Assembly: GCA_016286345.1 (NCBI GenBank)
Contig: JAEESL010000006.1
Span: 1 to 52,152 of the forward strand
Reading direction: 5' to 3'
Origin: Dehalococcoidales bacterium
GTDB lineage: Bacteria > Chloroflexota > Dehalococcoidia > Dehalococcoidales > UBA1222
DNA length: 52,152 bases
Under the pieces are notes generated by a model. It made no database searches. It was given only the letters and a program-made list of their open reading frames with translations, and was not told where the DNA came from. Both the position numbers and the translations under genes were made by a program. Below are positions 22,289 through 51,945 of the stretch, one piece after another (the first letter of the stretch is position 1; each line of letters begins with the position of its first letter).

Positions 22289-25200
22289 ATGAGTCGTTAC
22301 TTTGATTTTAAACTTCCATGGGATCTGGATGTGATCAAATACTATCCGTCACATCTTTGCGATTACTTTTGTTTTCTATATGACAATGGACTTATTTATC
22401 TGCAGAAAGAACTGGAAGACTCAACGAATGATGAAGGTGAACACGGCCAGTATATGGTACTGGTCTTTCCGTATGTTCTTTCACCTGTGTGCGGTATCAA
22501 TACAGTCCCTATGCAGATAGCTCTTTGGCGCCAGATAGGTGATGAGGCTTATCTCGAATATGCAAACTTTGCAAATAAAGAGGCCGGTGAACGTGTTTAC
22601 GAGTGGAAAGCCAATATGAAGCAGTCTCCCTATGCTGACTGTGAAAAGAATTCATGTCCGAAGACGTCGGTTTTCTGCAGCGTACACATCATGTTTACTC
22701 TTGCCTATGGACTTAAGACTGCCCCTGAGACAGTAAAACAATATCGTAAATGGCATAACGATCACCTTCAGGAATCGGATGAACACAATTCATTTCATTT
22801 GTCAGTAAACTACCTGTGGAATCCCAAGAACGGTTTGGAATATGCTTCTCAGAAAGACATTATCGAGGCAGTGAAACTTGCCAGATCCGGCGAGGTGTTC
22901 CTTAGTAATGTTACGGATGATAAAGGGCTTTCAAGTGTTAAAACGCTTTTGCCAGGATATGTTCCGTCTTTGTATCCGACAACAAATGTTTTCCCATATG
23001 CAGATCTTCGGGTCGGTTTGAATTACTTTAATCCCAGTTCGAATCTTGATGAGATATACAGTGTGACAGAAGCAGAACGGGAGTCTTCAGAAAGCGGTCA
23101 CCGTTTCTACCTGCTTTATCTCGCAGGATACATCCAGTTCCTGCATATACGCGGAAGCTATTTCCATCAGCTGGAGATAAGAGACAAGCTTCTCAATGAA
23201 TACCGTGAAAAGATAAACAGTAATATTGATTTTGTGAAGTCGTGTCTTGAGGATCCTGATGATTTAGAAGAAGAGCTAAGACGAGCAAGCCTGACAAAGA
23301 GATTGTATTTTGCGATCAAGGCCGAAAGAGGATGCGGACAGCATTCTGTTTGTGAATATATTGCATACCGTCTCTGGGACCAGGGCCTTCTTTATACTCC
23401 TGAATATAAGCAGATCACTCTTTATGATTTATCCAGGAGTGATGTTACTTACACAGAAGGCGGTGATCTAAAATACCGCAATCTCAGGACGGATCATCTC
23501 TACGTGATTACCGGTCTCAGAGAGTTTTTGAATCTCAATGGTAAAAATGATTCCGAATCACAGAGAATCAATGACTATACATTGAAACTATTGTCCAAAC
23601 TGAGTGAGAACCGCTACGTTATTATCATGGGCGATAACAAGGATGTTACTGAATTCCTGAATCTGCATGAGAACTTCCAGCGTATCTATCATAACGTTGC
23701 CCTGAAGCAGTGGGATAATGAGCGCATTATCAGAAGTATTGAATCTCAGGTCCCGTATCCGCTGGATGATGCTGTCAAGACTCATCTTGCCAAATGGCTT
23801 CCTACAGCAAGGGACATTGAACCGTTGAAGAATGAAGAGCTGGCAAGATATGTTGCTTCACAGTATGTTCTGTCAAAAGATGTTAAGCTTCGTGATTATT
23901 CCATAAACAAAGATAAACTATTTAAAGATCTTGACAGACTGGTCGGTCTTTCAAAAATTAAGCAGCAGATAAAAGCACTTGATAAGTATCTTTTGTTCAG
24001 ATCTGAACTGCAGCAGAATTCAAAGCCTGTTCCGCCTATCAATCTTCATATGTTGTTCCTCGGCAATCCTGGAACGGGAAAGACTACTGTTGCAAGGATC
24101 ATAGGCAGACTTTTCTATAGTATTGGTCTTCTGAAGAAGGATACCTTCATTGAGTGTTCAGCCAAGGATCTGATAGGGGAGTACGTCGGTCAGACTGCAC
24201 CTAAGACTCAGAAAATGATCGACCGTGCCATGGGCGGCGTGCTGTTCATTGATGAAGCTTATTCACTCACTGTGGGAAAGAAGAATTCCAGCGGTGCCCA
24301 GTATGGTCAGGAATGTATTGCAACACTTATCAAAGCCATGGAGGATCACAAAGGTGAATTTGTGGTCATATTTGCCGGCTATACACAGGAAATGCATGAT
24401 TTTGTTGCCACTAATCCAGGTATTTCATCAAGGATCGGTTATACATTCGAATTCCCTGACTATTCAGAGGAAGAACTGTATGAGATATTCAAGATCAAGA
24501 TGGAAAACTTTACAATCGATAATAAAGCTGAAAAGCAGGTCAGACTGCTTCTTACATATTTCCATTCAGTTAAAAATGTCGGAAACGGCAGACTCGTTGA
24601 TAATGTGATACAGCGTATTTATATCAAGCATGCTGAAAACAGAAAAGGTGGAAAACTGCTTGAACTGACCATAGACAGTATTCCGACTGTCGCTGAAATG
24701 AGTGAGAGTCTGTATTCAGACGGTGAAGTAAAGATCCTTCCAGAAAACATTACAGAAGATGATCTGCATGGAACAGCAGTTCATGAACTCGGACATGCCA
24801 TCATTTCCTTCCTTGAGACATCGGATTCAAACATTGAAAAGATCACGATCATCCCTGAAGCAACAGGAACGCTCGGCTACGTACGATATAAAGATAATGA
24901 TGCAATCATCCATTATGATATTCAGGCAATGCGCAAACATATCTCCAGACTCTTCGGCGGACGTGCTGCTGAGGAAGCTTTCTTCGGACCGGAGCACATT
25001 TCAAACGGCTGCTCTTCCGATATCAAGAAGGCTACTGATATAGCAACAGTTTCCATGACAGCAGGCGGATGGTCTGAAACATATGGCCTTATCTATACCG
25101 ATGAACCAACAATGATTCAGAAAGCCGCTTTCGAAAAAGAACTGAAGGTTGTTCTCGATGATATCTATAAGGAAACTTTGGAAAAGATCGAGAAGTACAA

Positions 25201-25300
25201 GGATGTTATCGAGGCAATGAGCAAAGTTCTTATTAAAGAAAAGTCTATGGACGGCGTTGCATTAAACAAACTGTTCAAAAAAGAACTCGGAAAAGGGTAA
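22289..25300 (+). CDS. Tandem CbbX-type AAA+ ATPase fused to an FtsH-type M41 metalloprotease
   Basis: 1,003 residues. Residues 1-330 are of unknown type (Cys- and Tyr-rich start, no signal peptide). Residues about 335-525 look like a degenerate AAA+ module: its P-loop position reads ERGCGQHS, without Lys. Residues 545-800 are an intact CbbX/SpoVK-type AAA+ module with GNPGTGKT (592-599), VLFIDEAYS (Walker B, 651-659) and SSR (713-715). Residues 825-1003 are an M41 peptidase with HELGH (832-836), GGRAAEE (890-896) and Asp911 as probable third ligand. Real FtsH has a different AAA class and membrane anchors, both missing here. It is probably a soluble ATP-driven protease or regulator. Confidence 0.88.
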   Translation: MSRYFDFKLPWDLDVIKYYPSHLCDYFCFLYDNGLIYLQKELEDSTNDEGEHGQYMVLVFPYVLSPVCGINTVPMQIALWRQIGDEAYLEYANFANKEAGERVYEWKANMKQSPYADCEKNSCPKTSVFCSVHIMFTLAYGLKTAPETVKQYRKWHNDHLQESDEHNSFHLSVNYLWNPKNGLEYASQKDIIEAVKLARSGEVFLSNVTDDKGLSSVKTLLPGYVPSLYPTTNVFPYADLRVGLNYFNPSSNLDEIYSVTEAERESSESGHRFYLLYLAGYIQFLHIRGSYFHQLEIRDKLLNEYREKINSNIDFVKSCLEDPDDLEEELRRASLTKRLYFAIKAERGCGQHSVCEYIAYRLWDQGLLYTPEYKQITLYDLSRSDVTYTEGGDLKYRNLRTDHLYVITGLREFLNLNGKNDSESQRINDYTLKLLSKLSENRYVIIMGDNKDVTEFLNLHENFQRIYHNVALKQWDNERIIRSIESQVPYPLDDAVKTHLAKWLPTARDIEPLKNEELARYVASQYVLSKDVKLRDYSINKDKLFKDLDRLVGLSKIKQQIKALDKYLLFRSELQQNSKPVPPINLHMLFLGNPGTGKTTVARIIGRLFYSIGLLKKDTFIECSAKDLIGEYVGQTAPKTQKMIDRAMGGVLFIDEAYSLTVGKKNSSGAQYGQECIATLIKAMEDHKGEFVVIFAGYTQEMHDFVATNPGISSRIGYTFEFPDYSEEELYEIFKIKMENFTIDNKAEKQVRLLLTYFHSVKNVGNGRLVDNVIQRIYIKHAENRKGGKLLELTIDSIPTVAEMSESLYSDGEVKILPENITEDDLHGTAVHELGHAIISFLETSDSNIEKITIIPEATGTLGYVRYKDNDAIIHYDIQAMRKHISRLFGGRAAEEAFFGPEHISNGCSSDIKKATDIATVSMTAGGWSETYGLIYTDEPTMIQKAAFEKELKVVLDDIYKETLEKIEKYKDVIEAMSKVLIKEKSMDGVALNKLFKKELGKG

Positions 25301-34340: not shown

Positions 34341-36518
34341 ATGAGTAAGATCAATAAGGCACCGATAAATAAAGGTGTGGCGGATGTTCCGATAGTCATG
34401 CAGATGGAAGCTCTCGAATGCGGAGCTGCTGCGTTGGCTATGATTCTTGCCTGGTACGGTAAGTGGGTACCATTGGAGCAGGTAAGAAGGGACTGCGGCG
34501 TTTCCCGTGACGGCTCAAATGCCAAGAACATGCTGGTTGCTGCCAGATTGTATGGCCTTGAGGCTAAAGGATACCGTTACGAACCTGATGTCCTGAGAAC
34601 TGATGGGACTTTTCCCTGTATTATTCACTGGAATTTCAATCATTTTGTTGTTCTTAATGGTTTTAAGGGCAATAAGGCCTACATCAATGATCCCGCAAAG
34701 GGTACTTATTCCGTATCCATGGAAGTATTTGATAAATCATTCACCGGAATATGTCTGGTGTTCCAGCCTTCGGCAGACTTCAAACCTTCAGGACAGCAAA
34801 GAAGTGTTTACTCGTTTGCAAGAACCAGACTTAGAGGTGCGGGTGCTTCCTTTGCTCTGGTCGTTATTACGACTGTTATCACTTCATTTATCGGTATTAT
34901 TACTCCAGGTATGACAAATGCCTATGTATCCAGAATTCTTACAGGGCTCAACCCTGAATGGCTGATGCCGTTTATATGGATAATGTCCGGACTGGCGATC
35001 ATGCAGGTAGTGGTTGCATCGATACATGCTATATATACGCTCAAAGCGAATGGCAAGATGGCTATCGTTGCAAACAGTGCATATGTGTGGCATGTTCTCA
35101 GACTTCCAATGGAATTCTTTTCCCAGCGTCTGGCAGGGGATATATCAATGCGCAGACAGCAGAATGCAACCATTGCCAGTGATTTGATCCAAAGATTTGC
35201 ACCTCTGGTGATTCAGCTGTACATGATGATATTTTACCTGTTCGTCATGGTCAGGTACTCACTGGTGCTGTCTTTGATAGGTCTTGCTTCGGTTGTCATT
35301 AACAGTACTCTGTCTTTCTGGATTTCAAGGAAAAGAGTCAACCTCACCAGAGTAAAATCACGTGACTTGGGAAAGCTTTCCGGCAATACAGTAGCCGGAA
35401 TCGAAATGATTGAATCGATAAAGGCATCCGGAGCTGAAAACGGATTCTTCGAGAAGTGGTCAGGTTATCAGGCCAGTGTCAGCAATGGAACTGTCAAATA
35501 CACTAAGTTGAATGCCTATCTCGGACTTATTCCGCAGATAGTATCTTCTTTTACCAGTGCTGTTATTTTCATGTTCAGTGTATATCTTTGTATGAATGGC
35601 GACTGGGAAGTCGGTATGATCGCCGCTTTTTCCGGTTTCCTGAATGCATTTCTCGGTCCTGCCTCTCAGCTGATCTCAGCATCCCAGATGCTGCAGGAAA
35701 TGCGTACTTCTATGGAACGAATTGAGGATGTCATGAATTATCCGACGGACATAGAATATCCTGATCAGGCAAATCCCGATGATATGGAATTCAATAAACT
35801 GACAGGCAAAATAGAACTGAAAAATGTCACTTTCGGCTATTCCCGTATGGCTCCTCCCTTGATCGAAAACTTTTCCCTGACGATCGAGCCGGGGCAATGC
35901 ATTGCTTTCGTCGGTTCCTCCGGCAGCGGCAAGTCAACTCTTTCAAAACTGATCTCAGGCCTTTACAAGCCATGGAGCGGAGAGATCCTTTTTGACGGAA
36001 AACCGATAGAAGAGATCAACCGCAGTATATTTACATCATCACTGGCTGTTGTTGACCAGGATATCATTCTTTTTGAAGATACCATTGCCAATAATATAAA
36101 GATGTGGGACTTATCGATTGAGGATTTTGAGATGATCATGGCTGCCAGGGATGCACAGATACATGATGATATCATGCAGAGAGTCGGCGGCTATCAGTAT
36201 AGGATCACAGAAGGCGGTAAAGACCTTTCCGGAGGACAGCGTCAAAGACTTGAGATCGCCAGAGTACTTGCTCAGGACCCGACTATTGTTATTCTTGATG
36301 AAGCAACCTCTGCTCTTGATGCCCAGACTGAAAGCAGTGTTGTCAAATCAATTACCGACCGTGGAATCACTTCAGTTGTTATCGCACACCGTCTCAGCAC
36401 AATCAGAGACTGTGATGAAATCATTGTTCTTGACCATGGCAAAGTCGTGGAACGTGGAAATCACGAGGAACTCTATGCAAAAGGCGGGTTATATACAAAA
36501 CTTGTCAGCAGTGACTGA
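34341..36518 (+). CDS. C39 peptidase-ABC exporter (NHLM bacteriocin type)
   Basis: 725 residues. An N-terminal C39 peptidase (1-140) has Gln21, Cys27 (ECGAA), His101 (NHFVVL) and Asp117 (NDP), the full set for cutting leaders at double glycine. Six membrane helices follow, about 165-430. The ATPase has GSSGSGKST at about 524-532, signature LSGGQRQR and ILDEATSALD. It would cleave and export the precursor encoded at 38755. Its TGA shares bases with an ATG of the second ABC gene. Confidence 0.92.
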   Translation: MSKINKAPINKGVADVPIVMQMEALECGAAALAMILAWYGKWVPLEQVRRDCGVSRDGSNAKNMLVAARLYGLEAKGYRYEPDVLRTDGTFPCIIHWNFNHFVVLNGFKGNKAYINDPAKGTYSVSMEVFDKSFTGICLVFQPSADFKPSGQQRSVYSFARTRLRGAGASFALVVITTVITSFIGIITPGMTNAYVSRILTGLNPEWLMPFIWIMSGLAIMQVVVASIHAIYTLKANGKMAIVANSAYVWHVLRLPMEFFSQRLAGDISMRRQQNATIASDLIQRFAPLVIQLYMMIFYLFVMVRYSLVLSLIGLASVVINSTLSFWISRKRVNLTRVKSRDLGKLSGNTVAGIEMIESIKASGAENGFFEKWSGYQASVSNGTVKYTKLNAYLGLIPQIVSSFTSAVIFMFSVYLCMNGDWEVGMIAAFSGFLNAFLGPASQLISASQMLQEMRTSMERIEDVMNYPTDIEYPDQANPDDMEFNKLTGKIELKNVTFGYSRMAPPLIENFSLTIEPGQCIAFVGSSGSGKSTLSKLISGLYKPWSGEILFDGKPIEEINRSIFTSSLAVVDQDIILFEDTIANNIKMWDLSIEDFEMIMAARDAQIHDDIMQRVGGYQYRITEGGKDLSGGQRQRLEIARVLAQDPTIVILDEATSALDAQTESSVVKSITDRGITSVVIAHRLSTIRDCDEIIVLDHGKVVERGNHEELYAKGGLYTKLVSSD

Positions 36519-36532
36519 TGAGAGGGATTAAT

Positions 36533-38731
36533 ATGGGACTGTATGATGATCAGATAAGAGAACGTATACGGATGGATGATGAGGAATTCCAGAATTCCAT
36601 GTTCTCCATGGCTGGCATCGTCATGGGCGAAAAGATCTCACGTGCTCTTGAAAATGACAGGATTAAAACAAAAAATGCCATAGAAGAGATACTGAAATTC
36701 TTCCATGCCAGGCCTGTTCCTATGCCTGATGACATAACTGATATCAATGAACAGCTTGAATATCAGCTCAGACCCGCTGGTATCATGTACAGAACTGTCA
36801 ATCTTGAGGACGGCTGGTATAAGGACTCGATCGGTCCTATGCTTGGAGTGACCAGAGAAGACGGAACTCCCATTGCTCTCGTTCCTGAAAAGTTATTCGG
36901 CTACTCGTATTATGACTATGAACAGGGAAAACGGGTAAAAGTCGGCAGTAAAACATCCGAATATCTGTCGGATGAAGCAATTGTCTTTTATAAATCGCTG
37001 CCATTGAAAAAGATCGGTATAAAGGATCTGACCTCGTATGCCGTGCAGTCCTTTACTTATACCGATATTGCCATGGTCGCAATAACTGCACTTATTGTTT
37101 CATTGATAGGTATGCTCCTTCCTTGGGCGAATAATCTTATATATGGAAAAGTCCTGTCAGGCGGAAGCTACAATCTCCTTATCGGTGTTTTTGCATTCCT
37201 CTTCAGCGTGACGGTCTCACAGCTGATCTTCCGTGCTGTTAATACTTTGCTTATAGAGAGGATTTCCTCCAAGGTCAGAGTTCAGGTTCAGGCAGCGGGA
37301 ATGATGCGCCTGCTTTCTCTTCCGGCTGTTTTTTTCAAGGACAAACCATCCGGTGACCTTGCAGCACGTATGTCGTATATTGAAGAAGTGACAAATACGA
37401 TGACAAGAGTTGTTCTTACAACAAGCTTCACAACACTGTTTTCGCTAGTTTATATTTCTCAGATGCTCCATTACGGGCCGGGAGTCGTAGTCCCGGGTCT
37501 TCTTGTGATCCTGTTCACGTTATTATTCTCTGTTGTATTTACGATTGCTCAGGTACGTATTTCAAGGCAGATAATGGAACTGCATGCCAAAGAGGCAGGT
37601 ACGGATTATGCCATTATAAGTGGCGTTCAGAAGATCAAGCTGGCAGGTGCAGAGAAGAGAGCATTCTCAAAATGGGCCGAGGAATACACTGAACTGGCAA
37701 AACTTCAGTATGATCCTCCTGCCGTTATAAAATTCAGCACAGTTGTGACTTCATGCATATCTTTGATTGGAACAATCGTGATATATTACTTCACAATCAA
37801 GACCAATGTGGCACTTGAAGACTATTTTGCATTCAATGTGGCATATGGAAATGTAATGGGTGCATTTGTGATGCTGGTAGCAATGATCGGAGATATTTCC
37901 ATGATCCAGCCTATGCTTGAAATGGTGAAACCGATATTGGAGACCGTTCCTGAGGTTGCGGAAAATAAGAGTATTGTTACCAGGCTTTCAGGCGGCATTG
38001 AAATGAATGGTGTGTCATTCCGCTATAACGACAACATGCCTTTCATTTTCGATAATCTGTCGCTGAGAATAGCTCCCGGACAGTATGTTGCGATCGTTGG
38101 CAAGACTGGCTGCGGGAAATCAACACTAATGCGTCTGCTGCTGGGTTTTGAATTACCGCAAAAAGGTGCAATTTATTATGACGGGAGGGATCTGAATACC
38201 CTTGATCTGAAGTCACTGAGACGACATATCGGAACAGTAATGCAGAATGGCAAACTCTTCCAGGGAGATATCTATTCGAATATCACAATCTCTGCTCCCC
38301 AGATGAGTGTTGATGATGCCTGGGAAGTGGCAGAGACTGCTGGAATTGCCGATGATATCAGGGATATGCCGATGGGTATGCATACTGTTATCTCCGAATC
38401 CGGAGGCGGTATCTCCGGCGGGCAGAAGCAGAGACTCATGATCGCCAGGGCAATTGCCCCGAAACCCAAAATTCTCATGTTCGATGAAGCTACATCAGCT
38501 CTTGATAATGTGACTCAGAAGAAGATATCAGATGCACTGGATGCATTGAATTGCACAAGGATAGTGATAGCACACAGACTCAGTACTATCAAACATTGCG
38601 ACAGAATCCTTGTAATCGATGACGGAAAAATCAGCGAGGATGGGACTTATGATGAGCTGCTGGCGAAAAAAGGATTGTTCGCAGAATTGGTCGAACGGCA
38701 GCGTTTGGATACAACAGAAAACAAAGAATAA
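36533..38731 (+). CDS. Second NHLM-type ABC exporter subunit
   Basis: About 732 residues. The first roughly 150 residues form a non-peptidase, cytoplasmic N-terminal domain (no C39 Cys/His), as in the second transporter of NHLM systems. Membrane helices at about 185-435, then the ATPase with GKTGCGKST (about 523-531), signature SGGQKQR and MFDEATSALD. I chose ATG 36533 because AGAGGG is 6 bases upstream; ATG 36518 overlaps the previous stop. It probably pairs with the C39 exporter as a heterodimer. Confidence 0.9.
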   Translation: MGLYDDQIRERIRMDDEEFQNSMFSMAGIVMGEKISRALENDRIKTKNAIEEILKFFHARPVPMPDDITDINEQLEYQLRPAGIMYRTVNLEDGWYKDSIGPMLGVTREDGTPIALVPEKLFGYSYYDYEQGKRVKVGSKTSEYLSDEAIVFYKSLPLKKIGIKDLTSYAVQSFTYTDIAMVAITALIVSLIGMLLPWANNLIYGKVLSGGSYNLLIGVFAFLFSVTVSQLIFRAVNTLLIERISSKVRVQVQAAGMMRLLSLPAVFFKDKPSGDLAARMSYIEEVTNTMTRVVLTTSFTTLFSLVYISQMLHYGPGVVVPGLLVILFTLLFSVVFTIAQVRISRQIMELHAKEAGTDYAIISGVQKIKLAGAEKRAFSKWAEEYTELAKLQYDPPAVIKFSTVVTSCISLIGTIVIYYFTIKTNVALEDYFAFNVAYGNVMGAFVMLVAMIGDISMIQPMLEMVKPILETVPEVAENKSIVTRLSGGIEMNGVSFRYNDNMPFIFDNLSLRIAPGQYVAIVGKTGCGKSTLMRLLLGFELPQKGAIYYDGRDLNTLDLKSLRRHIGTVMQNGKLFQGDIYSNITISAPQMSVDDAWEVAETAGIADDIRDMPMGMHTVISESGGGISGGQKQRLMIARAIAPKPKILMFDEATSALDNVTQKKISDALDALNCTRIVIAHRLSTIKHCDRILVIDDGKISEDGTYDELLAKKGLFAELVERQRLDTTENKE

Positions 38732-45069: not shown

Positions 45070-46161
45070 CTATTTATTGTTGATGAAGTCTTCGAGTAAC
45101 TGTCTGTTGAGGAAGTCTTCTCTCTGGACTCTCGGATGCTTCATGAAGTAGCTTGAAGGAGGTACGATATCGCCTGACAGACCTCGGTCAAGAGCAATCT
45201 TCATGCATCGGATTGCATCGATCACGACACCTGCAGAGTTAGGTGAATCTTCGACTGAAAGTCTTAATTCCAGATTCATGGGAACGTCACCGAACTGCTG
45301 ACCTTCGATTCTCAGGAAGCAGAGCTTGTTGTCATGCTGCCAGGGAACGAAGTCTGATGGACCAACATGGATATCGAACGGATCAAGAGGTTCCTTAAGG
45401 TTTGACTGGACAGCCTGGGTCTTGGAGACTTTCTTGTCTGCAAGTCGGCTTCTGTTAAGCATGTTGAGGAAGTCAGTGTTGCCGCCGGTGTTCAGCTGAT
45501 AAGTGTGCATGATCTTGATGCCTCTTTCTTCGAAGAGTCGCATAAGTTCACGATGAACGATAGTAGCGCCGAGCTGTGATTTGATATCGTCGCCGATGCA
45601 TGGAACGCCTGCTTCCTTGAATCTTGCGATCCATCTGTCATCACTGGCAATGAATACCGGCATACAGTTGATATAGCCGACTTTTGCTTCAAGAGCGCAG
45701 TCTGCATAGAAATAGGCTGCTTCGCGTGAACCGACCGGCAGATAGCTGATGATCATATCAACGCCGGAATCTTTGATGCTCTGTACGATTTCTGCTTTGG
45801 TTGGTTCCGGAGCAGGGGATACACGGAATGAGATATCCTCATCAAAGTCCTGGGTATGTTCTGAGATACCGTCAAGCACTACACCCTTTTTGACGATGAC
45901 GCCGGTTTTGGGAACATTTGGTGCGAATACTTTTGTGCAGTTTGGCTTAGCAAAAATTGCCTCTGCAACATCCTTGCCGACTTTTCTGACATCAACATCA
46001 TATGCCAGGCCGACTTCGATGTCCTTGATCTCATAACCGCCGAGAACCTTGTGCATAAGACCGATGGGTTTTTCTTCACAGTCATGATAATACGTAAGAC
46101 CCTGTACGAGTGAAGACGCGCAGTTTCCTACGCCGATGATACCGATTTTGATTTTGCTCAA
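45070..46161 (-). CDS. ino1: Inositol-3-phosphate synthase
   Basis: Converts glucose 6-phosphate to inositol 3-phosphate using NAD, the first step toward inositol lipids or inositol-derived solutes. About 363 residues, the length of the short prokaryotic form. NAD-binding GIIGVGNCASS begins near residue 7; other marks are GDDIKSQLGATIVHRELMRL and QLNTGGNTDFLNMLNR. I start it at TTG 46161 because GGAGG (46170-46174) is 8 bases upstream; a longer frame to 46218 lacks a ribosome-binding site. Common in actinobacteria and Chloroflexota. Confidence 0.9.
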   Translation of the reverse strand: MSKIKIGIIGVGNCASSLVQGLTYYHDCEEKPIGLMHKVLGGYEIKDIEVGLAYDVDVRKVGKDVAEAIFAKPNCTKVFAPNVPKTGVIVKKGVVLDGISEHTQDFDEDISFRVSPAPEPTKAEIVQSIKDSGVDMIISYLPVGSREAAYFYADCALEAKVGYINCMPVFIASDDRWIARFKEAGVPCIGDDIKSQLGATIVHRELMRLFEERGIKIMHTYQLNTGGNTDFLNMLNRSRLADKKVSKTQAVQSNLKEPLDPFDIHVGPSDFVPWQHDNKLCFLRIEGQQFGDVPMNLELRLSVEDSPNSAGVVIDAIRCMKIALDRGLSGDIVPPSSYFMKHPRVQREDFLNRQLLEDFINNK

Positions 46162-46234
46162 TTTATATTCCTCCAGAATTGTATTTACACTATCGATAAC
46201 AAATTGAAACTTTTTCATATTTTGACTGATTGCG

Positions 46235-46420: not shown

Positions 46421-46720
46421 GTGAATATTAACGAAGCTTCAAATGGTGATCAGATTACATTGTCCGTCAGCGGACGGGTCGATACCACTACGGCTCCCGA
46501 TTTACAGACATCAATCACTAATGCTTTTGAAAAGAGTGCAGATCTTGTAATCGATTTTTCAGAAGTTGAATATATTTCCAGTGCAGGTCTCCGAGCATTG
46601 CTTTTCGGACAGAAGACTGCCCAGTCTAAAAATGGCTCAATGGTAGTTACCAATGTGACCGATGCTGTGAAGGAAGTACTTGATATTACCGGTTTTTCCA
46701 ATATTCTTACTATCCAGTAA
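46421..46720 (+). CDS. STAS-domain anti-sigma factor antagonist
   Basis: 99 residues, a single SpoIIAA/RsbV-like STAS domain. The phosphorylation site is in YISSAGLRALLFG, most likely Ser54. In such circuits an RsbW-type kinase phosphorylates this Ser and a PP2C phosphatase removes the phosphate; unphosphorylated STAS binds the kinase. Both partner domains are encoded downstream. Start is GTG 46421 with GGAGG 8 bases upstream. The 86-base gap to the next gene holds a possible -10 (TACACT 46793-46798). Confidence 0.9.
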   Translation: MNINEASNGDQITLSVSGRVDTTTAPDLQTSITNAFEKSADLVIDFSEVEYISSAGLRALLFGQKTAQSKNGSMVVTNVTDAVKEVLDITGFSNILTIQ

Positions 46721-46806
46721 TTAGCAGTATTTTGATGATTGTTTTATTGCAATGTTCATCTCTGTATATCCTTTATTTCACAATGATGGCGGTACACTAG
46801 TCAGAT

Positions 46807-48612
46807 ATGAAGAATTCTGATAACAGTAACGCAAAACTTGTTCAGAACGATACGTTTCTCAGCAGAACGTTCAATTCTGCTGTTATTCCCAGTATCCTGA
46901 CGACACTGACTGGTACTATCACGATCATCGTTGATGGTATTCTTGTCGGTCAGAAGATCGGTTTGAATGGTCTTGCCGCACTTAACTACTGTCTTCCACT
47001 CTATATGATCCAGTGTGTCATAGGATCGCTTATTGTTTCCGGTGCAGGCATTATTTCATCTAGGCTTATCGGAAATAGTGATCACAAAGGGGCGAATGAT
47101 TACTGTCAGGTTGCCGTGACCCTCGGCATAATAGTTTCAGTACTTCTGACATTTTTCGGAGTATTATTCCTTGATCCTATCAGTAAAGCTCTGTGTTCAG
47201 ATCCTGAGATAACACCGATGATCGTTGAGTATGCATATATCACTTTCCTAGGTACGGTATCACGTGTATTGCTGTATATTCCGTTCTGGTATCTGAGGAT
47301 AGAAGGGAAGAATAATCATGTCCTTATATCTGTAGCCATAATGGCAGTCGGCAATATCATCCTTGATATCGTTTTCCTGTTCGGGCTCGGATACGGAGTC
47401 GCCGGTGCTGCTCTTGCCAGTGTGATATCGACCACAGTCGCAACCATGTATGGTCTTATTATTCTTTTCTCAAAGAAGACCAGGGTGAATTTTGAATTTA
47501 ATCTTAAGATGCCGACGCTGGCAATGATGAAGAAAATATTTGTGACAGGCAGTCCGGCTGCGAATAATAATCTTATGCAGACGCTCAGATTGCTTGTCGT
47601 GAACTATCTTCTTACTTATTTCGGCGGAACAGACATGGTGGCGTATTTCACGGTTATCAATGGTGTTGCATCAGTTTCTGAATCCATTACTGTCGGAGTT
47701 CCTTCTGCCGGTATTGCGATTACAGGTATCTGTTACGGAGAACATGATAATCCCAGTTTAAGGATCATATTGAAAAAAGAGATCATATATGGAATCCTTC
47801 TGTGTCTGGTCTTTGGAGCTGCGATCATTTTCGGTTCTGACTATATTGCAATGGCATATGGTGTTGATGGCAGTATCCGTTTTCCTATGATGTGCCTTGC
47901 GGCAAGTCTTGTACCGGCACTTTTATGCGGAATATTGATCCATTTTTATAATGTGACTGGTCATGAGGTTCTTTCGAATACTATGATCACGCTCAGAATA
48001 TTTGTTTTCGCAGCCATTACAACATTTCTGCTTCAGTACAATGATATGGCTCCATGGCCGTTCCTGTTCCAGGAACAGGTTCTTACTCTTTTTTTCTGGA
48101 TCATTGCATCCGGATTTATTGCCAGACGCAGAAAACTGTCACGTTTTCTTTTGCTTGATACAGAACTTGAACACTCAGGCAATGTGATCAATTTCTCGTC
48201 AGATTCATCAGCTGAACAGATTGCAGGCGCAAGCGAGAAGATCGTAACTTTCTGCGAGAATAATGACATGAATCCCAAGGAGGTCATGAGTGTCAGTCTG
48301 GCTCTTGAGGAAATAATGGCGCTCATTGCAGAAGTGAACCGTGATCATGCTCAGGAAAAACGCAATAATGAAAAAAATACTGTCCCGGGTGATCTTTCAA
48401 ATAATAGTGACCTTGTTTTATTTGATATCAGGGTGTTCAAGATACAGGGAGTCATCGGTATCCGTTTCAGATATGACGGTATTCCGTTCAATCCTGTTGC
48501 TGAAGAAAACCAGTCAGATATGTATATGGGTATCCGTCTTGTAACCAAGATTACACAGACGATTGTTTATAGAGTGGTTTTTGGTATGAATTCTCTTTCC
48601 ATCACTATTTAG
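46807..48612 (+). CDS. MATE-family transporter fused to an RsbW-like kinase domain
   Basis: 601 residues. About 1-455 form a MATE multidrug/polyspecific antiporter with twelve hydrophobic segments (VDGILVGQKIGLNGLAALNY near the start; DGILVG is a usual MATE helix-1 mark). About 470-601 form a GHKL ATPase domain like anti-sigma kinase RsbW/SpoIIAB: MSVSLALEEIMALIAEV holds the N-box Glu-Glu, and MYMGIRLVTKITQTIVYRV the G-box-like end. The kinase would be held at the membrane. Start ATG 46807 has no Shine-Dalgarno. Role inferred: a membrane-bound switch partner of the STAS protein. Confidence 0.85.
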   Translation: MKNSDNSNAKLVQNDTFLSRTFNSAVIPSILTTLTGTITIIVDGILVGQKIGLNGLAALNYCLPLYMIQCVIGSLIVSGAGIISSRLIGNSDHKGANDYCQVAVTLGIIVSVLLTFFGVLFLDPISKALCSDPEITPMIVEYAYITFLGTVSRVLLYIPFWYLRIEGKNNHVLISVAIMAVGNIILDIVFLFGLGYGVAGAALASVISTTVATMYGLIILFSKKTRVNFEFNLKMPTLAMMKKIFVTGSPAANNNLMQTLRLLVVNYLLTYFGGTDMVAYFTVINGVASVSESITVGVPSAGIAITGICYGEHDNPSLRIILKKEIIYGILLCLVFGAAIIFGSDYIAMAYGVDGSIRFPMMCLAASLVPALLCGILIHFYNVTGHEVLSNTMITLRIFVFAAITTFLLQYNDMAPWPFLFQEQVLTLFFWIIASGFIARRRKLSRFLLLDTELEHSGNVINFSSDSSAEQIAGASEKIVTFCENNDMNPKEVMSVSLALEEIMALIAEVNRDHAQEKRNNEKNTVPGDLSNNSDLVLFDIRVFKIQGVIGIRFRYDGIPFNPVAEENQSDMYMGIRLVTKITQTIVYRVVFGMNSLSITI

Positions 48613-48623
48613 GAGATTTCGGT

Positions 48624-50168
48624 ATGAATGAAGATTTGAATCTGGAAAATTTAAAAACGATTATCGAAAATTGCAAAGATACCGAATTTGGCCGGAAACA
48701 TAATTTTGATAAGATCCATTCTGTTGATGATTACAGGAGGGAAGTTCCCCTGTCTGAATACAGGGATTATGCTGAAGCGATAAAGAGAATGGAAAACGGT
48801 GAAGAAAAAGTTCTCACTGCCTGGAAAGTAAAGCATTATCTTTCTACTTCCGGAACAGGCGGAGTTCAGAAGCACATACCTCTCACTCAGGAAGGTATTG
48901 ACCGATACGGAGATATTTTCTATTTTGCCCCGTTCAAAGTGATGGGGATTGATATTCATGCTCCCAAGATCTTTCTCAGCACGTTTGTTGTGAATTCAAC
49001 GGCCCCTATACTCATCAGTACTGCATATTTTTGGAATCTGAAGGAAAAGGGTATCCTTGATCCGAATGATTTCCTTGAAAAAGAAAGGTTGCTTTTCCCA
49101 TCAGAGTCGCTTGATGTTGAGATTCAGACATACTGTAAGGCAAGGGCTGCTCTTTCCTGTCCTGATCTGACTGCCATTCAGTCAATGTTCCTGTATGATG
49201 TTCTGCAGTTCTTCCTGTATCTGAAGTCAAACTGGAAGATGCTGATTTCAGATATAGAGAACGATTCATTTTCAATCGAACTGCCTGAAGATATAAAGAG
49301 TGTGGTTAAAGGGTTCAGCAAACCTGATAAGGCATGGCTTGATAAGATCAAGAAAGAATTTGCAGCAGGTTTTGATACACCGATAACTCCCCGAATCTGG
49401 CCAAAACTGAGTTTTGTGACAGGAATCGGCGGAAAGGTATTTCTTGAACAGTCTGAGGCAGTGAAAAGCTTCTGCGGAGATATTCCTATTTTCTATTTCT
49501 GCTATGGTTCTACTGAATGTGTACTGGGACTTGCCTATGCTCCCAACAAAGCCGATTATTCACTGACACAGAGAATTGGTTTCTTTGAATTCCTGCCTAT
49601 CGGCGGGGATGAAACAGTTCTTCCGAGGGAAGTTGAGATCGGCGGAATATATGAACCGATAGCTACTAATTTTTCAGGGCTTTACAGATACAGAATGGGT
49701 GACAGAATCAGAATCACAGGTTTCATGGATGACGGACTGCCGACTTATGAGATTCTCGGACGAAATACACTGATACTTAACATGTGTGGCGAAAAAGTTG
49801 AATATGAATCAATTTACAGGGCTGTAATTGATGTCCGTGACAAGTATAATATCGGTAGTTTTGATTATTGTGTTGCAACTGATATCAGCGGAAAACACGG
49901 GCATTTTGATATCTTTATTGAAGGAAAAATCAATCCTGCTGTGAAAGAAAGTCTGGCTGCTGATATCGATGCATATCTAATTAAAACGAATATTGATTAT
50001 AAAGACCTGCGAAACAAGAACAATATTGATCCTCCTGTCGTTTATGTTATTGCAGACGGCATGATGGAACAGTGCAGGGCGGCTACAATGCCTTCCGTTA
50101 CCACCAAGAAGCCGCTTCAGATAATCAAACCTGAACAGAGGGAATACTTGAAGGAGAGGAGCCTGTAA
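48624..50168 (+). CDS. GH3-family acyl-acid adenylating enzyme
   Basis: 514 residues. GH3 proteins are ANL-type enzymes that activate a carboxylic acid with ATP and join it to an amino acid or other amine. Visible signatures: ATP-binding STSGTGGVQKHIPLT near residue 74, YFCYGSTECVLGLAYAPN, GLYRYRMGDRIRITGF and the C-terminal lobe after LGRNTLILNMCGEKV. Plants use this family for auxin and jasmonate conjugation, but bacterial substrates are mostly unknown. AGGAG lies upstream; it starts 12 bases after the MATE-kinase gene and 4 bases before the phosphatase gene. Confidence 0.85.
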   Translation: MNEDLNLENLKTIIENCKDTEFGRKHNFDKIHSVDDYRREVPLSEYRDYAEAIKRMENGEEKVLTAWKVKHYLSTSGTGGVQKHIPLTQEGIDRYGDIFYFAPFKVMGIDIHAPKIFLSTFVVNSTAPILISTAYFWNLKEKGILDPNDFLEKERLLFPSESLDVEIQTYCKARAALSCPDLTAIQSMFLYDVLQFFLYLKSNWKMLISDIENDSFSIELPEDIKSVVKGFSKPDKAWLDKIKKEFAAGFDTPITPRIWPKLSFVTGIGGKVFLEQSEAVKSFCGDIPIFYFCYGSTECVLGLAYAPNKADYSLTQRIGFFEFLPIGGDETVLPREVEIGGIYEPIATNFSGLYRYRMGDRIRITGFMDDGLPTYEILGRNTLILNMCGEKVEYESIYRAVIDVRDKYNIGSFDYCVATDISGKHGHFDIFIEGKINPAVKESLAADIDAYLIKTNIDYKDLRNKNNIDPPVVYVIADGMMEQCRAATMPSVTTKKPLQIIKPEQREYLKERSL

Positions 50169-50171
50169 GTT

Positions 50172-51881
50172 ATGGATGAAACAAACAAAAAAAATAAGCG
50201 CACAAAGATCAGTCATAAAATTGCGACGCTGATCATTCTTTTTGCATTGATTCTTACTGCAGCAACTACCACCGTCGGCTATTTTGTGTTCAAATCAAAC
50301 ACAGAGAGAGTCTACAATGATTCTGCATATAATACTGCCAAAGTTGCCGCATCATACATCTCCCCTGAACTTCTCAAGGAATACTCTGATCTTGCAAAAG
50401 AATATGTTGCAGGAAACGTATCACAGGAACAGATTCTTTCTGTTATCGGATCAGACGATTATAAGAATGTACGTGCTCTCATAGTCAACCTCAAGGAAGA
50501 TATGGGCGCAAATGACATCTATATCGTGTACCCCGATATGGAAATGATGTGGAATTACGGAAACATTCCTGATGAAGAATGGAATCCAATGCTGTATATC
50601 TTCGATTCCTACATTGATGAGAATTACAGCTATTACCTCGGTAATATAGGTCCTTTCAATCCCAAATTCATAGAGGATATTGATAAAGTAATCACAACCG
50701 GTGAGAGATCTGATAACTATTTTGTCTCTAAGAGTAAATATGGTTATAACACTTCTGCTGTCTATCCCATTTATCTCAACAATGAACTGGTTGGTGTAGT
50801 GGGTACTGAGATCCCGATGGTCACGATTACCGATACACTTCGCAAGTATCTTATTATCGTTACTCTTCTTGCTCTGGCAATCATGGCTTTGGTGATAACC
50901 CTGATCTCAATGGTTCTTAATAAGATTATCGTTAAACCCATCAATATTGTTGCCAGTGAAGCAGAAAAGTTTGTTGACGATACTTCGGTTATCTCCATGA
51001 AGCTAAACAGTATCAGGACCAATGATGAAATTGAGGACCTGTCTCAGAGTATCATGACGATGGAAAATGACATCAACCGATATATCGCTGAGGTTAAGAG
51101 CGTCACAGCAGAAAAAGAACGTATCGGAGCAGAACTTAACGTTGCCAGAAATATCCAGAAGGCCATGCTTCCTATCATCTTCCCGGCTTTCCCTGAAAGA
51201 AAAGAATTTGATATATATGCTTCAATGGATCCTGCTAAGGAAGTCGGTGGTGACTTCTATGATTTCTTCCTGGTTGATGATTCACATCTGGGAATGGTTG
51301 TTGCAGATGTCAGCGGTAAGGGCGTTCCTGCCGCACTGTTCATGGTCATCGGTAAAACTCTTATCAAAGATCACACCAATCCAGGACTCGATCTTGGCAC
51401 AGTGTTCTCTGAAGTCAACAATATGCTTTGCCAGACAAATTCAGAACAGCTATTCATTACTGCATTTGAGGCTGTCATCGATCTTAAGACCGGTGAAGTC
51501 AGCTATGTCAATGCAGGACATGAACATCCGTTTATCATGAAGAAACAGGCAGATGGTTCATACAAGTATGAGGAAGTTGTTCCTAAGTCCGGTATCGTTC
51601 TTGCTGCAATGGATGATATGCGATATGTATCCGGCAGCTTCAATCTTGAGCCCGGTGATCGTCTGATTCAGTACACAGATGGTGTAACTGAAGCCACCAA
51701 TGCCAATAATGAGCTTTACGGTATGGAAAGACTCGGTGCATATCTTAATAAAAATACCGATAAGAAACCCGAAGAACTGCTTCATGGTTTGAAGGCAGAT
51801 ATCGATGAATTTGTAGGCGAAGCTCCTCAGTTTGATGACATCACTATGCTCTGCTTCGAATACAACGAAAAGATGGATTGA
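50172..51881 (+). CDS. Membrane sensor with HAMP and SpoIIE-type PP2C phosphatase
   Basis: 569 residues. Membrane helix 1 at about 18-40, an extracytoplasmic sensor of about 180 residues (Tyr/Asp-rich, probably a Cache-like fold), helix 2 at about 222-252, HAMP at about 253-305, a coiled linker, then the phosphatase (about 335-565). Metal-binding residues are in EVGGDFYDFF, VVADVSGKGVPAALFM, YTDGVTEA and FDDITML. It would sense an outside signal and dephosphorylate the STAS protein of the same unit. A strong terminator follows 24 bases after the stop. Confidence 0.9.
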   Translation: MDETNKKNKRTKISHKIATLIILFALILTAATTTVGYFVFKSNTERVYNDSAYNTAKVAASYISPELLKEYSDLAKEYVAGNVSQEQILSVIGSDDYKNVRALIVNLKEDMGANDIYIVYPDMEMMWNYGNIPDEEWNPMLYIFDSYIDENYSYYLGNIGPFNPKFIEDIDKVITTGERSDNYFVSKSKYGYNTSAVYPIYLNNELVGVVGTEIPMVTITDTLRKYLIIVTLLALAIMALVITLISMVLNKIIVKPINIVASEAEKFVDDTSVISMKLNSIRTNDEIEDLSQSIMTMENDINRYIAEVKSVTAEKERIGAELNVARNIQKAMLPIIFPAFPERKEFDIYASMDPAKEVGGDFYDFFLVDDSHLGMVVADVSGKGVPAALFMVIGKTLIKDHTNPGLDLGTVFSEVNNMLCQTNSEQLFITAFEAVIDLKTGEVSYVNAGHEHPFIMKKQADGSYKYEEVVPKSGIVLAAMDDMRYVSGSFNLEPGDRLIQYTDGVTEATNANNELYGMERLGAYLNKNTDKKPEELLHGLKADIDEFVGEAPQFDDITMLCFEYNEKMD

Positions 51882-51904: not shown

Positions 51905-51945
51905 AACAAGAATGCCCGGTCCGGACCGGGCATTCTTGTTTTTAG
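51905..51945 (+). terminator. Terminator after the phosphatase gene
   Basis: AACAAGAATGCCCGGTCC (51905-51922) and GGACCGGGCATTCTTGTT (51923-51940) are perfect inverted copies, then a T-run. It closes the STAS-MATE-GH3-phosphatase unit. Confidence 0.93.

Follow-up and report, generated by a model that had tools for sequence, protein, structure and literature searches.

Candidate partner-switching module with a MATE transporter carrying a degenerate RsbW-like domain in a Dehalococcoidales genome

Results

Four-gene locus

We describe a four-gene locus encoding a STAS antagonist, a MATE transporter with an RsbW-like C-terminal tail, a GH3-type enzyme and a membrane-bound SpoIIE phosphatase. It lies on contig JAEESL010000006.1 of the Dehalococcoidales bacterium assembly GCA_016286345.1 (Chloroflexota), whose forward-strand positions 1 to 52,152 are called the window below. 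Partner switching is best known for freeing sigma factors. We lean towards reading this locus as a partner-switching module that works independently of sigma factors and has an export transporter as its output, docked via a pseudokinase tail. The evidence is the fold of the tail, the loss of its ATP-binding residues, and the linkage of tail-bearing transporters to partner-switching genes in Clostridia. The features of the locus are as follows.

46421..46720, plus strand: STAS-only protein of the anti-sigma-antagonist type, 99 aa, GTG start (Pfam STAS, 3.2e-18; NCBIfam ant_ant_sig, above cut-off)
46580-46582, plus strand: codon of the STAS phospho-acceptor Ser54, in the motif YISSAG
46807..48129, plus strand: MATE transporter body, aa 1-441, of the 12-transmembrane type (Pfam MatE, 5.1e-27; two MatE repeats)
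48130..48612, plus strand: C-terminal pseudo-RsbW domain of the MATE protein, aa 442-601, GHKL fold without ATP-binding residues
48307..48324, plus strand: degenerate N-box EEIMAL, aa 501-506, with Glu502 retained and Leu506 at the position of the RsbW Asn
48472..48480, plus strand: degenerate G1 box YDG, aa 556-558, with Tyr556 at the position of the RsbW Asp
48624..50168, plus strand: GH3-type acyl-adenylate/amide synthetase, 514 aa (Pfam GH3, GH3_M, GH3_C)
50172..51881, plus strand: membrane sensor with a C-terminal SpoIIE/PP2C phosphatase domain, 569 aa (Pfam SpoIIE, 4.8e-45)
51905..51945, plus strand: strong intrinsic terminator, a 16-pair stem followed by a T run, ending the transcription unit

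An original prediction, made by reading the DNA alone, had named these four consecutive genes, and all of them were confirmed in place and in Pfam family. The spacing of the last three is indeed tight, but the gaps are 11 (MATE-GH3) and 3 (GH3-SpoIIE) bases rather than the 12 and 4 originally given; the STAS and MATE genes are separated by 86 bases. The full MATE fusion gene occupies positions 46807-48612, the tail accounting for 160 residues. The AlphaFold model of the whole protein has a mean confidence (pLDDT) of 85.5, the best structural matches of the transporter body in PDB are MATE transporters, and Asp43 is invariant in 19 relatives. The SpoIIE protein has the metal-binding aspartate motifs GGDFYD, ADVSGKG, TDGV and FDDIT at aa 359, 378, 502 and 554. 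The predicted phosphorylation of the STAS protein at Ser54 agrees with its relatives, as the acceptor position is serine in all 25 cluster STAS proteins, where YxSSAGL is invariant. As originally noted, no sigma factor gene is present within the four-gene set.

Conservation in Clostridia

To collect relatives, the two SpoIIE proteins of the genome were used as queries against GTDB contigs. This yielded 80 profile-annotated loci, all or nearly all from Clostridia; the relatives of the cluster belong mostly to Lachnospiraceae. Of the 18 closest loci, 13 contain the MATE fusion, GH3 and SpoIIE genes together (L092-L095, L097-L100, L102, L105, L106, L108, L110), and contig ends truncate the remaining five (L096, L101, L103, L107, L109). 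Locus L104, which has a MATE fusion without GH3, was left out of the 18. The exact order of the window, STAS-MATE-GH3-SpoIIE, is found in L098, L100, L102, L105 and L106. The large genes thus stay together in related genomes, the point on which the original prediction had said it could fail.

An intact rsbW gene lies directly downstream of the SpoIIE gene in 13 of these 18 loci; many other loci encode a SpoIIE protein with RsbW fused at its C-terminus. The window resembles the minority of loci with no adjacent RsbW. The sole strong RsbW match found in its genome is on another contig, C29.

To avoid the bias of fetching loci by SpoIIE, linkage was tested using the tail alone in 391 genomes of the Clostridial class, 25 of which have the tail at E <= 1e-12. 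The control was 40 segments of 19 kb, 20 from the genomes of this search and 20 from those of a GH3 search. A STAS, SpoIIE or RsbW gene was observed within 8 kb in 19 of 30 tail-picked MATE-fusion loci and in none of the 40 controls (Fisher p 9e-10). Similarly, the 37 GH3-picked loci from the family of the L093 genome have a MATE tail within 8 kb in 11 cases (p 1e-4) and a partner-switch gene in 13 (p 2e-5), the controls being 0/40 for both. No sigma-factor family was matched by two or more of the 73 open reading frames (ORFs) flanking 16 clusters, as judged from the top 25 of 126 families, so that isolated sigma genes are possible. This part of the original prediction, a partner-switch set tied to a transporter and GH3 with no recurring sigma gene, therefore extends to other genomes. 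An exact short-peptide scan of contigs with the MATE fusion found no relatives, the peptides being too divergent, and a search of PLSDB retrieved plain MATEs and unlinked GH3 genes only.

The transporter tail

Taken alone, the tail matches HATPase_c_2 weakly (E 0.003, 18 bits, under the 27.4 cut-off), and homology was therefore established through its relatives. The profile of the tail family (19 sequences) aligns with the RsbW profile over 138 columns (hhalign 98%, E 1.9e-13), and HATPase_c_2 is matched by 11 of the 19. The tail domain is modelled by AlphaFold with pLDDT 87. The first match of this model in a Foldseek search of PDB is SpoIIAB in complex with SpoIIAA (1.2e-6), followed by RsbW-RsbV and UsfX-RsfB. 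Several of the top matches are complexes with STAS partners, and the SiaB-SiaC structure is also among the matches. Searches of the tail against PDB sequences by phmmer and by profile gave nothing useful, and only the fold search was informative; a PP2A scaffold among the sequence matches was dismissed as noise. Thus the original assignment of the tail as RsbW-like is upheld by both the profile alignment and the first structural matches, SpoIIAB, RsbW and UsfX, and a failure to match GHKL kinases, named at the time as grounds for rejecting it, was not observed.

The residues needed for ATP binding have been lost. In the merged alignment, the N-box asparagine, which coordinates Mg-ATP, is present in 17 of 17 RsbW proteins and in none of the 19 tails, which have leucine, isoleucine or valine instead. 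The G1 aspartate (DxG), which binds adenine, shows the same distribution (17/17 and 0/19), and two of the three G2 glycines are lost in the tails, while the N-box glutamate, Glu502 in the window, is invariant. More distant MATE fusions are intermediate, most of them retaining the aspartate without the asparagine. Judging from these alignments, the tail domain apparently derives from a GHKL kinase that was once functional, ATP binding having been lost in the group linked to GH3.

As the ATP- and Mg-binding residues are absent in every close relative, and as most of the closest clusters have a separate intact RsbW behind SpoIIE, the tail is better read as the target or docking site of the switch than as its kinase. 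The original prediction that the circuit is complete, with its kinase as part of the transporter, is accordingly not supported: both residues are missing from all 19 tails, and a separate intact RsbW, the more likely kinase, lies behind SpoIIE in 13 of 18 related loci and, here, on contig C29.

Similar domains on other transporters

Degenerate RsbW-like domains are found on further transporters of the same genome. Contig C7 (L086, 3186-6569) contains the only other SpoIIE gene of the genome, divergently oriented to a gene for an SDF (dicarboxylate/amino-acid) symporter with such a domain at its N-terminus. Contig C29 (L090, 6494-11417) contains a row of genes for RsbW, an HD-type hydrolase, a STAS domain fused to an APH-like kinase, and an amino-acid ABC transporter. 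The latter, situated 3' of RsbW and STAS, has a degenerate RsbW-like domain at its C-terminus. Finally, contig C99 (L009, 530-2266) encodes a second MATE transporter with a degenerate RsbW-like tail, which has a counterpart in a genome of the same genus (L077, 1861-3837). No SpoIIE gene was seen beside this second fusion on the two short contigs.

The profiles of the ABC tail (98%, E 1.4e-13) and of the SDF head (97%, E 1.8e-10) align with the profile of the MATE tail, and both match it better than they match the RsbW profile. In Clostridia, SDF and ABC fusions with pseudo-RsbW domains also occur beside STAS, RsbW and SpoIIE genes (L093, L095, L166, L169). One tentative scheme is a post-translational network spanning the genome, in which a single RsbW and a few STAS and SpoIIE proteins gate transporters from unrelated superfamilies. 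The MATE exporter, the SDF symporter and the amino-acid ABC importer would all be reached by way of the same ATP-dead RsbW-like docking domain, which would coordinate amino-acid uptake with the making and export of an amide.

The GH3 enzyme and possible cargo

All three Pfam domains of GH3 were identified in the enzyme (N-terminal 3.6e-49, middle 3.4e-16, C-terminal 8.7e-10), and the adenylation motifs STSGTGG, YGSTE and YRMGD are present. Among PDB sequences, plant GH3 acyl acid amido synthetases come nearest to it. The nearest named NCBIfam model is OlsH, with 67.6 bits against a cut-off of 620. In loci lacking GH3, the genes near the MATE fusion or near STAS and SpoIIE encode a GNAT-type acyltransferase (or a GNAT-like protein), an LPG_synthase_C-type aminoacyl transferase, or a nonribosomal peptide synthetase (NRPS) with a reductase domain. 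In two Lachnospiraceae loci (L166, 5055-9311; L155, 5099-9313), NRPS genes of the C-A-PCP-reductase type separate STAS from SpoIIE and are surrounded by RsbW and by transporters fused to pseudo-RsbW domains. The enzymes that alternate near the switch are mostly amide- or acyl-forming, which suggests that GH3 makes or modifies the molecule exported by the MATE transporter. The cargo would probably be an amide such as an N-acyl amino acid.

Proposed mechanism and alternatives

The proposed regulation would proceed as follows. The membrane SpoIIE protein would sense a signal and remove the phosphate from Ser54 of the STAS protein. RsbW would phosphorylate Ser54 again, acting in trans from contig C29 here and from directly downstream of SpoIIE in most relatives. 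The ATP-dead tail of the MATE transporter would be a docking site that holds the STAS protein without phosphorylating it. Unphosphorylated STAS would bind the tail in competition with the real RsbW, and the occupancy of the tail would set the activity of the transporter, through which the amide made by GH3 (e.g. an N-acyl amino acid) would be exported. The two phosphate-transfer steps follow the established biochemistry of SpoIIE/SpoIIAB/SpoIIAA and RsbU/W/V. The docking step is proposed because of the fold of the tail, its residue loss and its linkage; both the binding of STAS to the tail and the direction of control are inferred from these.

Several observations weigh against this scheme. 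Firstly, six of the more distant MATE fusions retain an intact N-box asparagine, so some tails of this kind are not dead. Secondly, no rsbW gene is adjacent to the cluster in the window, and the metagenome-assembled genome, at about 91% completeness, may lack a further kinase. Thirdly, for 11 of the 30 tail-picked MATE fusions, the surrounding 8 kb contain no partner-switch gene. Finally, the GH3 protein shares no more than about 28-35% identity with its cluster relatives.

The main alternative, possible but rather unlikely, is that information flows in the opposite direction. The transporters would then be the sensors, their tails holding STAS or letting it go according to the state of transport or the substrate load. 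Once free, STAS would act via RsbW on a sigma factor or another target elsewhere. Transporters are known to serve as sensors in other systems, and one RsbW with several transporter tails in one genome would suit the collection of inputs. However, SpoIIE already has a membrane sensor of its own, and no sigma family recurs near the clusters, although an unlinked sigma factor is still possible.

It is also unlikely that the tail is a domain for ligand sensing or assembly that has no connection with STAS, the genes being merely co-expressed. GHKL folds have been reused for other roles, and the MATE fusions that stand alone would fit such a domain. On the other hand, the linkage to STAS, RsbW and SpoIIE is strong, and homologous domains are carried by three transporter superfamilies in the same setting.

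The reading originally offered, an active RsbW-type serine kinase in the tail that phosphorylates STAS, is very improbable: homology and fold, the retained N-box glutamate, the full N-box of distant fusions and the lack of an adjacent RsbW in the window speak for it, but the Mg-binding asparagine and the adenine-binding aspartate are absent from 19 of 19 tails, G2 glycines are lost, and 13 of the 18 closest clusters have a dedicated intact RsbW following SpoIIE.

Host and origin of the cluster

The genome comprises 1.46 Mb in 115 contigs, and the contig with the cluster carries its 16S gene and a ribosomal operon. The RpoA protein of this contig is 79% identical to that of a genome from the same genus, 45-58% identical to those of other members of the family and order, and 38-43% identical to those of the cluster-bearing Clostridia. 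Clostridial contamination was considered and set aside, as RpoA is nearer to the host's own genus, family and order than to Clostridia. Together with the 16S gene and the ribosomal operon, these identities show that the contig is native to the genome.

The cluster itself has a different distribution. The same-genus genome contains no close relative of the MATE fusion of the window (best 24%), a search with the tail in 393 genomes of the host's class found only the copy in the window, and the GH3 genes of genomes of that class lie apart from partner-switch genes. Over almost its entire length, the SpoIIE protein shares 50-52% identity with its nearest Clostridial/Lachnospiraceae relatives, which is above the RpoA identity to Clostridia, and the MATE protein of the window falls within a fully supported group of Bacillota MATE fusions. 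The simplest reading of these sequence comparisons is horizontal acquisition from a Clostridial source.

Other features of the window

A gene for inositol-3-phosphate synthase (45070-46218, minus strand; Inos-1-P_synth, 3.8e-33; below the mycothiol_INO1 cut-off) is divergent from the cluster. Positions 22289-25300 encode a 1003-aa protein with a SpoVK/CbbX-like AAA domain followed by an FtsH-like protease part. Positions 34341-38731 encode an NHLP bacteriocin exporter pair (NHLM_micro_ABC1 and ABC2, above cut-off). Such pairs were observed within about 9 kb of SpoIIE partner-switch genes in 9 of the 80 Clostridial loci (L092, L095, L111, L116, L117, L130, L132, L135, L138) and in none of the 40 controls.

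Discussion

The locus shares with the SpoIIAA-SpoIIAB-SpoIIE and RsbV-RsbW-RsbU switches of Bacillus a STAS protein with an acceptor serine, a PP2C phosphatase and an RsbW-fold partner, the fold of the tail matching SpoIIAB and RsbW. It differs in that the cluster contains no sigma factor, that the additional RsbW-fold domain is apparently ATP-dead and fused to a transporter, and that the active kinase would be encoded by a separate gene.

Partner switches with an output that is undefined or other than a sigma factor have been described: BtrUVW, which acts on type III secretion in Bordetella, SiaABCD, HmpUVW and SypE/SypA (PMC8256260). These have the same logic of STAS protein, kinase and phosphatase, whereas a pseudokinase domain built into a transporter is not described for them in the literature that we found. 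Transporters of the SLC26/SulP family carry a C-terminal STAS domain (PMC8256260). This is analogous insofar as a domain of the partner-switch type is fused to a transporter. However, there it is the STAS half that is on the transporter, whereas here it is the RsbW half and STAS is free. The MATE protein has the same transmembrane fold as the multidrug exporters NorM, DinF and PfMATE but bears the extra 160-aa pseudo-RsbW tail. The bacterial GH3 protein OlsH is an N-acyl-ornithine synthetase that makes N-acyl ornithine (PMC12493201); the enzyme of the window shares its GH3 fold but scores far below the cut-off of its model. Neither transporters with a fused pseudokinase domain of the RsbW type nor this gene set turned up in our literature search, which most subscription papers fall outside.

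If the proposed mechanism is correct, it would extend partner switching to the direct control of membrane transport via a transporter-fused pseudokinase. It would also account for the many SpoIIE, STAS and RsbW gene sets of gut Clostridia for which a sigma target is not evident, and it offers a simple binding test. Finally, it would connect a bacterial GH3 enzyme, of a kind that has received little study, with an exporter under regulation and hence with a small molecule that can be found.

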